A stretch of DNA of 64,000 bases. Origin: Chthoniobacteraceae bacterium. Its GTDB lineage: Bacteria; Verrucomicrobiota; Verrucomicrobiia; Chthoniobacterales; Chthoniobacteraceae. Numbering within the stretch: the first letter of the stretch is position 1; the number at the start of each line of letters is the position of its first letter. Below the pieces are notes generated by a model. That model did no database searches and had not been told where the DNA came from. It saw nothing but the letters and a program-made list of their open reading frames with translations. Position numbers and translations under genes: made by a program. Location of the stretch: the NCBI GenBank assembly GCA_028293625.1, contig JAQGOL010000040.1, positions 62,001 to 126,000 on the forward strand, given 5' to 3'. Shown here one piece after another: positions 50,096 through 54,045 of the stretch.

Positions 50096-50962
50096 CTAAC
50101 CTCGGGAAGAAGTGCGCGCATGGGCGAGCAGTTCAACCGTCACGGTTTTTGGAGCGGAATAATGGACACAGTGCGCTTCGCCGGGAATGCTTATAAACCG
50201 GGAATTGGGTGTCAACTCAGCGGCTTCCTGAGCCCAGCGCATTGGCATGGTGGGATCGTTCTCGCCGCGAATAATGAGAGTGGGTGCCGGGATGAGTGGA
50301 AGCACCTTTTCAATCCGATCCTTGAACATGTGGCGCACCGTGCCAAGCGCCAGGCCGAGGCCGGCACGGCCGAAATCGAATAGCCAGCTGCTCCAAAGCC
50401 GCGGAGGTTCACGCAGGGCATCTTTGAGGAGGCGGAAAATCTGAAGCGCCAATCCCGGTGCATCCGGATCGATGGTGGCGCCAATCAAGGTAAGCGACAC
50501 GACCCGGGAAGGATATTCAGCGGCCAGGTGCGCGCAGATCTGGCAGCCGAGCGAGTTTGCAACCAGGTGGCATTTCTCAATGCCACGCGCATCCATCCAA
50601 TCGACAACGGCCTGCGCAAGTTCAGGAATGCTCAATGCACTCGCGGAGCCGTCACTTTTACCGAACCCCGGAAGGTCCAAAGCATGCACCGAATGATGCA
50701 CGGCAAGGCATTCGGCCAATGGAATCATGTAGAGGCTCGAAATCACGAGGCCGTGAATGAGAAGAAAAGGAACGCCTTGAACGCGCGCCGATTCGCGGCT
50801 GTGAAGGCGCAACCCATTGAGCGTTGTCCAGTGGCTCGACAACCGGCTTTTCACCGGAATACCGCAGTCCCGCAGGAACTCAGGAATGTGAGAGAGAAAT
50901 GGTTCGTCGATGCGGGGTGGAATGGAAGCGGATGCTGTTGAAAGAGGAGCGCCTTTGAACAT
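50096..50962 (-). CDS. Alpha/beta hydrolase
   Basis: A 288-residue hydrolase, ATG at 50962. Oxyanion loop VPFLLIHGLVISSLYMIP, nucleophile elbow HLVANSLGCQICAHLAAEYP (Ser; the first Gly of GxSxG is Ala), acid in LIIRGENDPTMPM and catalytic His in SIPGEAHCVHYSAP. The order and spacing fit the lipase/C-C hydrolase branch; substrate unknown. The frame is open to 51460 but then overlaps the divergent SEC-C gene, so the shorter start is preferred. Confidence 0.82.
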   Translation of the reverse strand: MFKGAPLSTASASIPPRIDEPFLSHIPEFLRDCGIPVKSRLSSHWTTLNGLRLHSRESARVQGVPFLLIHGLVISSLYMIPLAECLAVHHSVHALDLPGFGKSDGSASALSIPELAQAVVDWMDARGIEKCHLVANSLGCQICAHLAAEYPSRVVSLTLIGATIDPDAPGLALQIFRLLKDALREPPRLWSSWLFDFGRAGLGLALGTVRHMFKDRIEKVLPLIPAPTLIIRGENDPTMPMRWAQEAAELTPNSRFISIPGEAHCVHYSAPKTVTVELLAHARTSSRG

Positions 50963-51172
50963 GGAAGTGAATCGTTTTTCATCCAGTGAAATAAGAGGCT
51001 TTCCGTTTTTCGCGATGCGACGGGAAGAAACGAGGCGGGCTTGGTGAAAATGAAGAAAAAAGGAGTATTGCTTTAGTTCAACAAAATGCGCGCGATCAGG
51101 TGACTCGCTCGATCTCTCCGAAATGAGAAACAGAGACTCTTTTTCCCCGGGGCTCGGCGCCTCCCAAAACCG

Positions 51173-53254
51173 ATGATGCGCCAGGAGCTGCGCGAGTTGA
51201 TTGACCGCTCCCGATTTCATCAAGGCGCGGTACGTGAAGTGGCCGCGATGCTGCCGGCCGACGATGCGGAATTGGATCGTTGGATAGATGATGTGGTGCT
51301 TGATAATGATCAGCCCGGCTTTGTTTACGGCGTCGTCGCCGCCTTGAGCTGCGGACGCCGTGTTGACGCGCGGCACCTGACTAAAGGCACGTTGCTGATG
51401 CCCAACATTCTTACCCTGGGCTGCGTGGCGTGGCACATGGATGGCGATGTGGCTGAACACCTGTTGACCGCGGTGCAGCGAACCCTGGTCGCAAGAGAGA
51501 GCCAGGCGTCCGCTCTGCTCGTTGCTGCGGCGTGGTGCCTGGAAAGACGCAACGGTGAATTGCCAAGCGGCCTCATCACCGAGGCGCGGCTGCTCGCACG
51601 CACAAAGGAGCTGAGCAAAACGGGAATGGAAATGTTATGCGCCCTGGCCGGGATTATAAGGGATGACGGCTTCTCGGCGGTCCTGGCTCAGCACGACAAA
51701 TGGAAACTCGACCAGAGCGACATGCTCGAAGCCCAAAGCATGGGACAACGCATGCTCCGTTTATGCCGTGCCCCGATCCTCGACATCGTTCCACAGAATG
51801 CCAGCAACGATCTTGCCCGGGGATTTACGATGCGCAGGGCGGTGGCAAGAATCGGGCGCAATGAAAGCTGCCCGTGCGGCAGTAATGAAAAATACAAACG
51901 CTGCTGCTTTGATAAAGATCAGCAGCGCCTTCATCTGTCGTGCGATGTGGCCGGAAAAACGGCCGCCGAAGTCCGGGCAGATCCCGAGCGTTACCTGACC
52001 AAGGCCCGCCTCGACAAGACCCAGCCTTATGAACTCGCGCGGCTCGATCCGTGTAAAATCGATCCGCAACTGCTTCAAACCTATACCGTTCGGCTCGCTG
52101 CATTCTCTCTTTTTGAACGGATCGCCGAAGCCTACGAAAAACTCGGATGCCCGGAACCACTCAAAGAAGTTTGGGCCTTCATCCTCTTTTACGTCACCCG
52201 CGCCGGTCGCAAGGACATTGTTGAACGGCTCATGAAAACCGGGCTCGAATTCGGATGCGATCCCGCTGAAGTGCATCCCGGCACGCGGTTGCTGATGAGG
52301 CGGGATGAGCCGGCGGCTTTTTTATCACTCCTGGATGAACTGGCGCGGGAAGCGGTGATGAACAACAACGCGGAAACGCTTTCGAGGTTCGCCACGGGTA
52401 TCATGACCTCCGATCAGCGCGCTCTGGGAATCCTGATCGCGCGTGGAATTTTACCGATCACCGATAAAAAAGACGCGCTCTATCTGTTTGAGCAGATGCT
52501 TGAGGGCCGCGACAAACTCAATCTTTCCCCCGACGACCCCTTTAGCGACCTTATCGACGCGCGCTTTATGGAAGAGGAATCGGAGCCGAGCGCAGACGCT
52601 GAAGCGTTGCGAGTGGCGCGGCATCGGCTCGAATCCAAAGCGGCCGAGGTGCGGCAATTAAAAGAAGCGCTCGAACAGTTGCGCGGTGAAATCGAGCATC
52701 GGGAAGAGAAGGCGCCGGCTGCTGTGCAATCTTGCAACCTGTTGGCGCCCTTGGATGAGAGTGCCTTGCATCTGTTACGCGAAAAAGTGAACTCGCTAAA
52801 ATGTGAACTTAAACAGCGGCACAACGAGCGCGCTGTCCTGCGGCGGGAGCTGGAAAAAATGCACACGGACCTTGAAAGCCTCAAGCAATTCCAAGCCCGG
52901 CACGATACGCAGGAGCATGAGGAGGTCGACGAGGAGGAAGCGTTCATTCTGCCAAGCGGCGTCAGCGCCAATCAACCGGTTCGGCTGATTGAATTTCCCC
53001 GCAAATTCCACCAGGCCCTTGCCCTGATTCCCCGGCAAACAGCTCGCGCGACGCTTGCCATCCTCGGACGGTTGGCGGGTGGCGAGCCCGCGGCGTTTGT
53101 GGGCGTGGTCCGGCTCAAAGCGTGTCCCGACATCCTGCGTCAGCGCATTGGAATTCATCACCGGCTGCTGTTCCGGCTGCTGCCTGAACAGGTCCAAGTG
53201 GTCGACGTGATCAATCGCAAGGATCTCTCACGGCGAATCAAGTCACTGGGATGA
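51173..53254 (+). CDS. SEC-C zinc-motif protein with coiled coil and RelE-like C-terminal fold
   Basis: A 693-residue cytoplasmic protein. Residues 1-215 are helical with no motif I recognise. Residues 225-247 hold a SEC-C metal site, IGRNESCPCGSNEKYKRCC, of the type found at the end of SecA that binds zinc and contacts SecB or ribosomes. A helical segment (260-470) and a Glu/Arg-rich coiled coil (about 475-590) follow. The last 90 residues (605-692) look like a RelE/ParE-type fold: FPRKFHQALALIPRQTARAT, VRLKACPDILRQRIGIHHRL, VQVVDVINRKDLSRRI. The RQRIGxxxRLLF stretch is characteristic of RelE-family toxins. No antitoxin gene is adjacent. Function unknown; SEC-C is clear, the RelE-like part is moderate. 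Confidence 0.75.
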   Translation: MMRQELRELIDRSRFHQGAVREVAAMLPADDAELDRWIDDVVLDNDQPGFVYGVVAALSCGRRVDARHLTKGTLLMPNILTLGCVAWHMDGDVAEHLLTAVQRTLVARESQASALLVAAAWCLERRNGELPSGLITEARLLARTKELSKTGMEMLCALAGIIRDDGFSAVLAQHDKWKLDQSDMLEAQSMGQRMLRLCRAPILDIVPQNASNDLARGFTMRRAVARIGRNESCPCGSNEKYKRCCFDKDQQRLHLSCDVAGKTAAEVRADPERYLTKARLDKTQPYELARLDPCKIDPQLLQTYTVRLAAFSLFERIAEAYEKLGCPEPLKEVWAFILFYVTRAGRKDIVERLMKTGLEFGCDPAEVHPGTRLLMRRDEPAAFLSLLDELAREAVMNNNAETLSRFATGIMTSDQRALGILIARGILPITDKKDALYLFEQMLEGRDKLNLSPDDPFSDLIDARFMEEESEPSADAEALRVARHRLESKAAEVRQLKEALEQLRGEIEHREEKAPAAVQSCNLLAPLDESALHLLREKVNSLKCELKQRHNERAVLRRELEKMHTDLESLKQFQARHDTQEHEEVDEEEAFILPSGVSANQPVRLIEFPRKFHQALALIPRQTARATLAILGRLAGGEPAAFVGVVRLKACPDILRQRIGIHHRLLFRLLPEQVQVVDVINRKDLSRRIKSLG

Positions 53255-53268
53255 TCCCGCGCTTGCGA

Positions 53269-54045
53269 TTAGCGGATAATGCCGCGCGGACTGTTGGTCA
53301 CAAATTCAATCAAAAGCTCAAGCTCCGGCGAATCGGCCAGATCGACCCGGATTTGCTCAACGGCTTGCTGAAGGTTGAGCTTTGAGCGGTAGATAAGCCG
53401 GTAAGCTTCTTTGATGCGCCGGATCGCCTCCTCGGAAAAACCGTGCCGTTCGAGTCCCACTTTGTTGAAGCTGCGGACTTTCGCGGGGTTCCCATCGGCA
53501 ATCATGTAAGGCGGGACATCCTGCACGATCTTTGAACAACCGCCGGTCAGTGCATGGGCGCCAATCCGGCAGAACTGATGGATCGCGGTCAGCCCGCCGA
53601 TTACCGCGTAATCTCCCACTTCCACATGGCCGGCCAGGGTGCCGTTGTTGGAAAAAATAACATGATCGCCAACCACGCAATCGTGGGCCACATGGGAATA
53701 GGACAAAAGGTAGCAGTGGCTGCCGATCCGTGTGACCGACCCGGGCGCGGTGCCGCGGTGCAGCGTCACAAATTCCCTGAAAACATTATTCTCCCCAATC
53801 TCAAGGTGCGTCGGTTCGCCCGCATATTTGAGATCCTGGGTGACCTGGCCGATTGAGCCGAAGCTGAAAAAGCGGTTGCCCGGCCCGATTTTGGTCGGCC
53901 CGCAGACAGTCACATGGTTCTGAAACCAGCAGCCGTCCCCGATAATTACCTTCTCTTCAATCACGCAATACGGGCCGATCACGACGTTCTCGCCGATTTG
54001 GGCGCCGGGATCGACGACTGCGGTGGGATGAATCTTGGAAGTCAC
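53269..54045 (-). CDS. lpxA: UDP-N-acetylglucosamine acyltransferase LpxA
   Basis: A 258-residue enzyme that starts lipid A synthesis by acylating UDP-GlcNAc. The left-handed beta-helix hexapeptide repeats run from IHPTAVVDPGAQIGENVVIG to IGAHALTGGCSKIVQDVPP; the catalytic His is in YSHVAHDCVVGDHV, and the C-terminal helical domain contains LERHGFSEEAIRRIKEAYRLIYRS. Start codon is GTG at 54045 and overlaps the lpxC-fabZ stop as GTGA, so translation is coupled. Confidence 0.95.
   Translation of the reverse strand: MTSKIHPTAVVDPGAQIGENVVIGPYCVIEEKVIIGDGCWFQNHVTVCGPTKIGPGNRFFSFGSIGQVTQDLKYAGEPTHLEIGENNVFREFVTLHRGTAPGSVTRIGSHCYLLSYSHVAHDCVVGDHVIFSNNGTLAGHVEVGDYAVIGGLTAIHQFCRIGAHALTGGCSKIVQDVPPYMIADGNPAKVRSFNKVGLERHGFSEEAIRRIKEAYRLIYRSKLNLQQAVEQIRVDLADSPELELLIEFVTNSPRGIIR

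Follow-up and report, generated by a model that had tools for sequence, protein, structure and literature searches.

A gene lying at positions 51173..53254 of a 64,000-nucleotide stretch of contig JAQGOL010000040.1 from a Chthoniobacteraceae bacterium (the whole stretch being referred to below as the window) encodes a protein of 693 amino acids in which a mid-chain SEC-C zinc motif, two all-helical blocks, a coiled coil and an acidic linker precede a C-terminal domain of predicted RelE/ParE fold. The protein looks like an uncharacterised, self-controlled relative of the RNA-cutting toxins, a variant within the multidomain RelE/ParE superfamily, and its gene has the look of a single-gene effector without a recognisable antitoxin gene. 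The account that we favour, tentatively and at somewhat less than even confidence, is that of a cis-regulated, ribosome-directed, antitoxin-free RelE/ParE (BECR-fold) effector with an altered active site; it is built on the computed architecture, fold, conservation and charge pattern and on the lack of a recognisable antitoxin gene. The parts of the protein are as follows, where pLDDT is the predicted local distance difference test score and ORF an open reading frame.

51173..53254, plus strand: the whole ORF, 693 amino acids in one open frame
51182..51787, plus strand: N-terminal all-helical, repeat-like block, residues 4-205 (full-length model, ten-residue pLDDT means 72-96)
51848..51910, plus strand: SEC-C metal-binding motif, residues 226-246, with C233, C235, C244 and C245 (PF02810)
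51911..52576, plus strand: second all-helical block, residues 247-468, TPR/HAT-like at best (full-length model)
52592..52894, plus strand: predicted coiled coil of two long helices (474-513 and 529-574), residues 474-574 (full-length model)
52895..52972, plus strand: disordered acidic linker, residues 575-600, net charge -7 (pLDDT <50 at 576-599; charge counts)
52973..53251, plus strand: RelE/ParE-fold domain, residues 601-693, net charge +11 (predicted fold, Pfam, structural matches)

The evidence for the fold comes principally from the C-terminal domain (the tail) modelled alone, from a 25-sequence alignment and with a predicted template modelling (pTM) score of 0.80. The model has the N-terminal strand, helices, antiparallel sheet and C-terminal helix that characterise the BECR fold, and a Foldseek search of the PDB matched it to Thermus thermophilus RelE (E 1.4e-4), the Mycobacterium tuberculosis RelBE2 toxin (5.4e-4), PaaA2-ParE2 (5.8e-4), Vibrio cholerae YafQ (6.2e-4) and Cami1 (1.8e-3), which we take to be a CARF-RelE protein and which appears among the top matches both alone and on the 70S ribosome. 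In VIA-align 2, all 50 listed of the 243 chains with Z>=2 are toxin-antitoxin toxins or proteins that contain a toxin domain, among them Cami1 and Txp40 (Z 10.8-7.8), the best being a Helicobacter pylori toxin (Z 10.8, root-mean-square deviation 2.0 over 83 residues), with YafQ at 10.7, YoeB at 9.8, and E. coli RelE and Cami1 on the 70S ribosome at 9.6 each; RelE and ParE are not separable by fold alone. At the level of sequence, the Pfam family PF24732 ('ParE_like') scores 12.6 bits on the full-length protein and 16.6-16.9 bits on the tail alone (E 0.0064), below its cut-off of 24.4, and at E<=0.1 it matches 21 of 25 family tails, the best at 1e-8. Only the SEC-C motif is better conserved than the RelE domain, whose mean pairwise identity is 0.49 as against 0.27-0.38 in the helical parts (20 sequences). 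An initial annotation, made from the letters alone, had proposed a RelE/ParE-type C-terminus that could be checked by structure prediction and structural search, and both returned a RelE-like fold with toxins throughout the listed matches.

That this resemblance is a product of chance or of an over-predicted fold we consider very improbable. The window domain alone lies under the Pfam cut-off and the tail profile, run against PDB sequences, listed no toxin, yet the model reaches a pLDDT of 89.5 from its 25 rows, its toxin matches are uniform, one SEC-C member of the family (L216) passes the PF24732 cut-off at 24.7 bits, and the next best matches of the profile, in the bacterium's own genome and in the family sample, are stand-alone PF24732 and PF05016 toxins. 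In the own genome the sole other match at E<=1 (E 0.006) is L112 (1284-1743; G000:C40:139754), an 86-residue toxin over the PF24732 cut-off, preceded by an 83-residue ORF that is a possible antitoxin and has no Pfam match; the minus-strand ORF adjoining it is presumably Cas3-like. L118, an 88-residue PF05016 toxin with a 62-residue ORF upstream, is the family sample's sole other match at E<=1e-5. PF05016 (ParE_toxin) itself has no match anywhere in the own genome and matches in 8 of 14 control genomes. Designed armadillo repeats appeared in the PDB profile search at E 2e-6; this candidate homology was rejected as a summed artefact, because the single repeats score <5 bits with i-E >=300 in the three alignments shown. 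A PHROGs search with the tail found nothing, and a BFVD fold search gave one nameless match below E 1e-3.

If the fold is that of RelE, the question becomes how much of the RelE active site is retained. This was addressed with 51 tails, 31 of them from SEC-C proteins (that of the window included) and 20 from proteins of a second, SEC-C-less architecture described below, and four positions stand out.

53144..53146, plus strand: R658, invariant in 51/51 tails and aligned with RelE K54
53162..53164, plus strand: R664, invariant in 51/51 and aligned with RelE R61
53216..53218, plus strand: R682, invariant in 51/51 and aligned with YoeB H83
53228..53230, plus strand: S686, at position R+4, a tyrosine in the stand-alone RelE-type ORFs compared here

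Alanine mutants of E. coli RelE, as described in PMC2807027, place the requirement on R61, R81 and Y87, with K52A, K54A and Y87F retaining activity and K52 and K54 dispensable in vitro, and for M. tuberculosis RelE1 the residues reported as needed are R60, R65, R85 and Y89 (PMC12620021). The arginines of a RelE-type RNase are present in the window protein, R61 by alignment and R81 by way of YoeB H83, which the same report equates with RelE1 R85 and hence with RelE R81 (PMC12620021); the assignment of R682 to R81 rests on that equivalence, on the alignment of R682 with H83 and on the stand-alone toxins L118 and L250 compared by eye, hmmalign not having aligned the C-terminal helices of E. coli RelE, YoeB, YafQ and HigB. 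The C-terminal helix of the window protein lacks a tyrosine at the Y87 position. Three stand-alone RelE-type ORFs end in N/H-R-R-[DE]-x-Y, which puts their tyrosine at position 686, where the family tails carry aspartate or glutamate in 49 of 51 cases, serine in the window protein, histidine in L033 and never tyrosine. At position 688 (R+6, the R81-Y87 spacing of E. coli RelE) the SEC-C-less group is aromatic in 20/20. As judged by alignment, then, the RelE site survives in its arginines and is changed at its tyrosine, and because the tyrosine is missing and no antitoxin is recognisable, we see in the domain less a plain toxin than a RelE fold that is regulated or repurposed.

The tail could alternatively be of ParE type, inhibiting DNA gyrase instead of acting on RNA, which we regard as quite improbable. 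The nearest Pfam model bears the name ParE_like, Foldseek ranks ParE2 complexes near the top, and ParE toxins have been reported to lack RNase residues (PMC11980606); against this, the RelE, YafQ and YoeB structures score equally well or better, the SEC-C motif points to the ribosome or the Sec machinery, the RelE-type arginines are kept, and the stand-alone PF24732 toxin of the own genome, L112, has the H..Y of the RNase types.

The SEC-C motif is the second fixed point of the architecture. PF02810 matches residues 229-246 of the window protein with E 5.5e-7 and 29.8 bits against a cut-off of 20.4, and the protein therefore has both the CXCX8C[C/H] site and the profile score of the family; the motif also aligns to SecA and YchJ peptides of solved structure in the PDB. 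C233, C235, C244 and C245 are invariant in 20/20 aligned sequences including that of the window, histidine replaces C245 in the more distant members L130, L218 and L219, and residues 226-249 hold 11 invariant positions in 20 sequences. In SecA, the isolated SEC-C domain (metal-binding domain, MBD) is reported to co-sediment with 70S ribosomes, and modification of the cysteines to disrupt such co-sedimentation in the case of the C-terminal tail (PMC6620043). Around the motif, the full-length AlphaFold model (20-sequence alignment, pLDDT 83.6, pTM 0.62) places helices whose nature is less distinct. The two blocks have only weak armadillo- and TPR/HAT-like matches, at Z 7.4-9.1, the range where helical repeats match anything; for block 4-205, the armadillo-like match at Z 7.9 is under the trustworthy level for helical repeats, and a Pfam search at E<=5 found no family for residues 1-226 or residues 250-476. 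The initial annotation had named a SEC-C site near residue 233, cited contact of SEC-C with the translocation machinery or ribosome in SecA and named a coiled coil, all of which agree with the results above; the single long helical part that it pictured gives way to two repeat-like blocks plus the coiled coil.

Between coil and tail, charge is conserved where sequence is not. The linker, residues 575-600, has a mean identity of only 0.27 and a net charge of -3 to -9 in 20/20 SEC-C members, whose tails carry +5 to +11 (20/20); position 588 is aspartate or glutamate in 16/16 core members and is followed by Leu-Pro at 593-594 (13/16 and 14/16). In the 14 of 20 SEC-C-less members that could be measured, net charge is always negative (-2 to -7) over the 30 residues preceding the tail and positive (+2 to +7) in the tail itself, so an acidic linker before a basic tail is found in all 34 members measured (20 SEC-C and 14 SEC-C-less). 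In most rows, few segments of equal length elsewhere in the protein are as acidic as the linker. This charge pattern suggests that the linker may mask the basic tail in cis.

At the window locus the adjacent, usually overlapping antitoxin gene of a type II toxin-antitoxin system is not seen. The annotatable neighbours of the gene all lie on the minus strand. Upstream is an alpha/beta hydrolase, whose ORF as listed (50096-51460) overlaps the gene start; its gene probably starts downstream of this mechanical start, because the Pfam match covers nothing before residue 231 of the ORF. Downstream are an LpxA-type acyltransferase (53269-54045), separated by a gap of 14 bases, and an LpxC-FabZ-type protein. 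Three plus-strand ORFs upstream of the gene, of 137 (50528-50941, antisense within the hydrolase ORF), 44 and 45 amino acids, have no Pfam match at E<=0.1. The absence of an adjoining antitoxin, also remarked on in the initial annotation, is upheld to the extent that neighbour annotation and Pfam recognised none, a small undescribed antitoxin being still conceivable. A sigma-70 promoter scan of the gene region gave no site, and the second methionine (51176) is a possible true start, judged from homologues. The own genome (6.83 Mb in 43 contigs, 96.4% complete) has a single copy of the gene, with two further matches confined to short stretches around the SEC-C part.

From these features we infer ribosome docking, autoinhibition, RNA as the target and any cleavage, in a scheme that would run as follows. 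The SEC-C motif would dock the protein on the ribosome or the Sec machinery, where the two helical blocks could sense a partner or a nascent chain, and the coiled coil and flexible acidic linker would bring the RelE-like domain within reach of RNA on the ribosome. At rest, the acidic linker would cover the basic RNA-binding face in cis, replacing the antitoxin, until a signal freed it. The freed domain might then cut or clamp RNA through R664 and R682, together with R656/R658, with an acidic residue at the place of the RelE tyrosine in most relatives.

Several observations weigh against this scheme. On the ribosome a long distance separates the exit side from the A site, which leaves the docking geometry unproven. 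AlphaFold gives the linker a pLDDT <50 and predicts no confident contact between it and the RelE domain; nor is the linker extreme in all members, segments equally acidic numbering 198/620 in L043, 104/620 in L046 and 81/640 in L030, or the tail always the most basic part, equally basic segments numbering 96/505 in L026 and 50/507 in L031. In the active site, tyrosine is absent from all candidate positions of the window protein (K683, S686, R688), position 683 (the place of YoeB Y84) is K/R/Q/E in 27/27, position 688 is aromatic in only 5/31 of the SEC-C group (all tryptophan) and lysine or arginine in 20/31, and a direct ungapped alignment puts E. coli RelE R81 two columns on, at the D684 column and not at R682. 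For SecA itself, the MBD alone is reported as a weak ribosome binder and SecA without it as a tighter one (PMC6620043), and SEC-C also binds SecB, a ribosome link for other SEC-C proteins not being shown in the account of PMC8076867. A ribosome-associated RelE-like protein under helical control, as first envisaged from the letters, is borne out in its structural half, the fold and the architecture; the missing catalytic tyrosine speaks against a plain RelE.

The same residues open the way to a different explanation, possible if rather unlikely in our estimate, in which the tail is a non-catalytic module of a translation or export accessory factor, its arginine face binding rRNA, tRNA or mRNA after toxicity has been lost. 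The absence of tyrosine at 686 in 51/51 tails, R/K/A/C at 688 in 26 of the 31 SEC-C members and the lack of a recognised antitoxin all fit such a module. However, an aromatic residue at R+6 in 20/20 of the SEC-C-less group is what stacking would require, the Y87F mutant of E. coli RelE is reported to be still active (PMC2807027), and the strict invariance of R664 and R682 suits catalysis as well as binding.

The gene has relatives, whose taxa are given here as labelled in their records. Eight full-length copies occur in 6 of 57 related genomes, the window's own included; the other seven, in 5 of 56, are 40-49% identical to the window protein, and because of these seven further copies we do not regard the architecture as chance. 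A contig scan with the window sequence alone as query gave no match, and one with an alignment gave 59 loci, 25 of them family members (L022-L046) and the others matching only around the SEC-C stretch. The tail is kept in 24 of the 25, so homologues lacking it are not equally common, whereas equal numbers without conserved basic residues would have spoken against the reading from the letters, and R658, R664 and R682 hold throughout the 51 tails; as the scan patterns lay in the SEC-C and middle region, tail conservation is not a product of the search. The remaining locus, L045, was considered as an independent tail-less family (326 amino acids, N-terminal part plus SEC-C) and rejected, since an out-of-frame remnant of the tail lies directly downstream of the SEC-C part. 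Frames are broken in 3/25 loci, namely L045 and also L039 and L040, where the tail is in another frame than the N-terminal part, and L041 has lost approximately residues 267-474 while retaining SEC-C, coil and tail; errors in metagenome-assembled genomes are conceivable in both situations.

Occurrence is patchy. In the family sample, 7/40 genomes have the tail at E<=1e-5, as six full-length proteins and the stand-alone toxin L118; within the window's genus it occurs in the own genome only, of four genomes, three congeners being without it. The phylum sample gave at least 4/387 genomes at E<=1e-7 (no more than 12 candidates being scored in each genome), and the sample of the Acidobacteriota genome's phylum at least 3/347 at E<=1e-6 (up to 13 scored), consisting of two SEC-C proteins and one stand-alone frame of 107 amino acids. 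The layout of SEC-C and RelE tail recurs in Verrucomicrobiota, Kiritimatiellota, Acidobacteriota, Myxococcota and one tailed-phage contig. A 24-sequence tree resolves three branches, one of Myxococcota with the phage row, one of Kiritimatiellota type and a large one of Verrucomicrobiota and Acidobacteriota; the phage row is long-branched and of unsure placement.

In Myxococcota a second architecture appears. The sample of the phylum of G440 (Archangiaceae, so Myxococcota) has the tail at E<=1e-6 in at least 45/195 genomes (up to 24 candidates scored), of which six are SEC-C proteins (L213, L214, L216-L219) and at least 23 are open frames without the SEC-C pattern; the 23 comprise 20 loci (two repeating L220 and L221) and L223-L225, with L222 cut by a contig end and 15/45 left aside. 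Proteins of this type (L220-L225, L229-L248) combine a coiled-coil stretch and an acidic linker with a highly conserved RelE-like tail; in the 20 loci the open frames span 414-985 amino acids, most of them 414-480, and have no matching Pfam family of their own. The flanking ORFs of L236, presumably LexA, Lon and MutS, recur at 4-6 of the other SEC-C-less loci, which suggests ordinary inheritance of the gene in at least part of Myxococcota. The occurrence of this form in at least 23 of 45 Myxococcota matches, with flanks common to 4-6 other loci, may be counted in favour of the non-catalytic module.

The ORFs flanking the gene at 27 distinct loci (two of the 29 entries being duplicates) were compared all against all; the ORFs were chosen by length, which is unreliable in high-GC DNA. 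This crude comparison found no neighbour common to many relatives, and a conserved operon partner was rejected, none of three clusters of at least three loci being convincing as one: the largest (7 loci) consists of chained antisense-looking frames judged spurious by eye, and the other two, of 3 loci each, are NB-ARC/TPR-type proteins and one further ORF type, presumably Fic-like. A regex search, itself without a positive-control check, found no Ser/Thr kinases beside the loci. Large repeat proteins of DUF4062/TPR, SMEK/NB-ARC/TPR or TIR/NB-ARC/TPR composition lie near L029, L031 and L036 (3/27 loci).

The phage-borne member, L130:4728-6809, is a SEC-C/RelE-fold protein (profile E 7e-100) on the 64.7-kb IMG/VR contig G445, with genes for a Sak4-like protein, a helicase and a primase upstream, those for terminase, portal, head protease, tape measure and baseplate of a contractile-tailed phage downstream, and an eCIS_core protein nearby. 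A profile search of the loci from three viral scans (in the first, 80/252 loci were kept) gave no further phage-borne member, a viral scan with the tail alignment alone gave nothing, tblastn with the tail had no match in plasmids and a single one in phages (E 0.9, in a terminase), and tblastn with L130 in phages and plasmids found SEC-C stretches only. Several PADLOC models (E2, E1-E2 proteins and PDC-S12) match residues 204-268 of the window protein, through the SEC-C stretch, which suggests that SEC-C tails are a recurrent feature of proteins modelled as defence components. An abortive-infection or phage-competition effector, in which a sensor fused to a toxin shuts off translation at a phage signal, would account for the patchiness (the full-length form in 6/40 family genomes and 0/3 congeners), the member sited between phage primase and terminase genes, the NB-ARC/TIR, SMEK or DUF4062 repeat proteins near 3/27 loci and the structural match to Cami1. 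We hold it to be improbable: the window copy adjoins hydrolase and lipid A synthesis genes, the PADLOC matches cover SEC-C and coiled-coil stretches only, the SEC-C-less form resembles an ordinary inherited gene in part of Myxococcota, and the phage-borne member is the only one in three viral scans.

Two relatives record apparent rearrangements. In L033:6918-9419, on an Acidobacteriaceae contig, the frame runs through the SEC-C motif into a family protein (residues 222-692 matched) from what we take to be a SecA-like C-terminal part; this is either a natural exchange at the common motif or a join made in assembly, and of the two short runs of N nearby both lie upstream and neither at the junction. 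L125:1481-1590 (G285:C2) is a 110-base copy of the gene's 3' end, identical at 105/110 positions and about 20 kb from an intact copy, beside ORFs that are presumably an extracytoplasmic function (ECF) sigma factor and a Ser/Thr kinase; further stretches near both copies are alike at 72-76%, as if a duplicated unit had carried the gene end along.

Set beside known systems, the window protein has partial counterparts. It resembles the RelE/ParE toxins (E. coli RelE, YafQ and YoeB; PF24732, PF05016) in the fold of residues 601-693 and in the arginines read as R61 and R81, whereas its domain is fused to 600 residues, has a replaced tyrosine and no recognised antitoxin gene, and lies below the Pfam cut-off. 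Cami1 (PDB 8phb, and 8phj on the 70S ribosome according to the entry title) likewise has a C-terminal RelE fold behind a longer N-terminal part, and differs in that SEC-C is present here, no CRISPR gene is among the neighbours looked at, and no CARF domain was recognised in residues 1-226 and 250-476 by Pfam at E<=5, the full-model structural search not being aimed there. The SecA C-terminal tail, YecA and YchJ have the CXCX8C[CH] motif with conserved basic residues, unlike the window protein, where the motif is mid-chain and joined to repeats and a RelE-fold tail. The multidomain BECR-fold toxins surveyed by Gerdes in 2025 also hold a RelE-like domain within a larger protein, although SEC-C, zinc, coiled and PF24732 do not occur in the main text of the survey (PMC11980606). 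The combination of SEC-C with a RelE-fold tail is described in no title or abstract found in the open-licence PMC literature; SEC-C occurs together with ParE or RelE in the text of PMC10878067 and PMC3877243. According to its text, the Gerdes survey omitted many multidomain proteins that had no antitoxin it could identify or too small a membership, and the present family belongs to the class so set aside (PMC11980606).

The question can be put to a direct test with a short list of residues (R664, R682, D/E686, the aromatic residue at 688, and C233/C235). In the accepted picture, RelE-family toxins belong to two-gene systems in which an antitoxin provides the restraint, and a conserved family that keeps the fold and the key arginines without a recognisable antitoxin, and that combines an altered active site with a docking motif of ribosome or Sec type, would show toxin domestication, or control within one chain. 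A wider proposal, which we put forward as unlikely but worth stating, is that there exists a class of ribosome-tethered RelE-fold effectors independent of any antitoxin gene, with a neutralising acidic linker in cis, delivery by SEC-C or coiled coil, and an acidic residue in place of the tyrosine. If it were true, the class would be a co-translational surveillance or shut-off device, a chromosomal resident in parts of Myxococcota that is patchy in Verrucomicrobiota and at times carried by phages.

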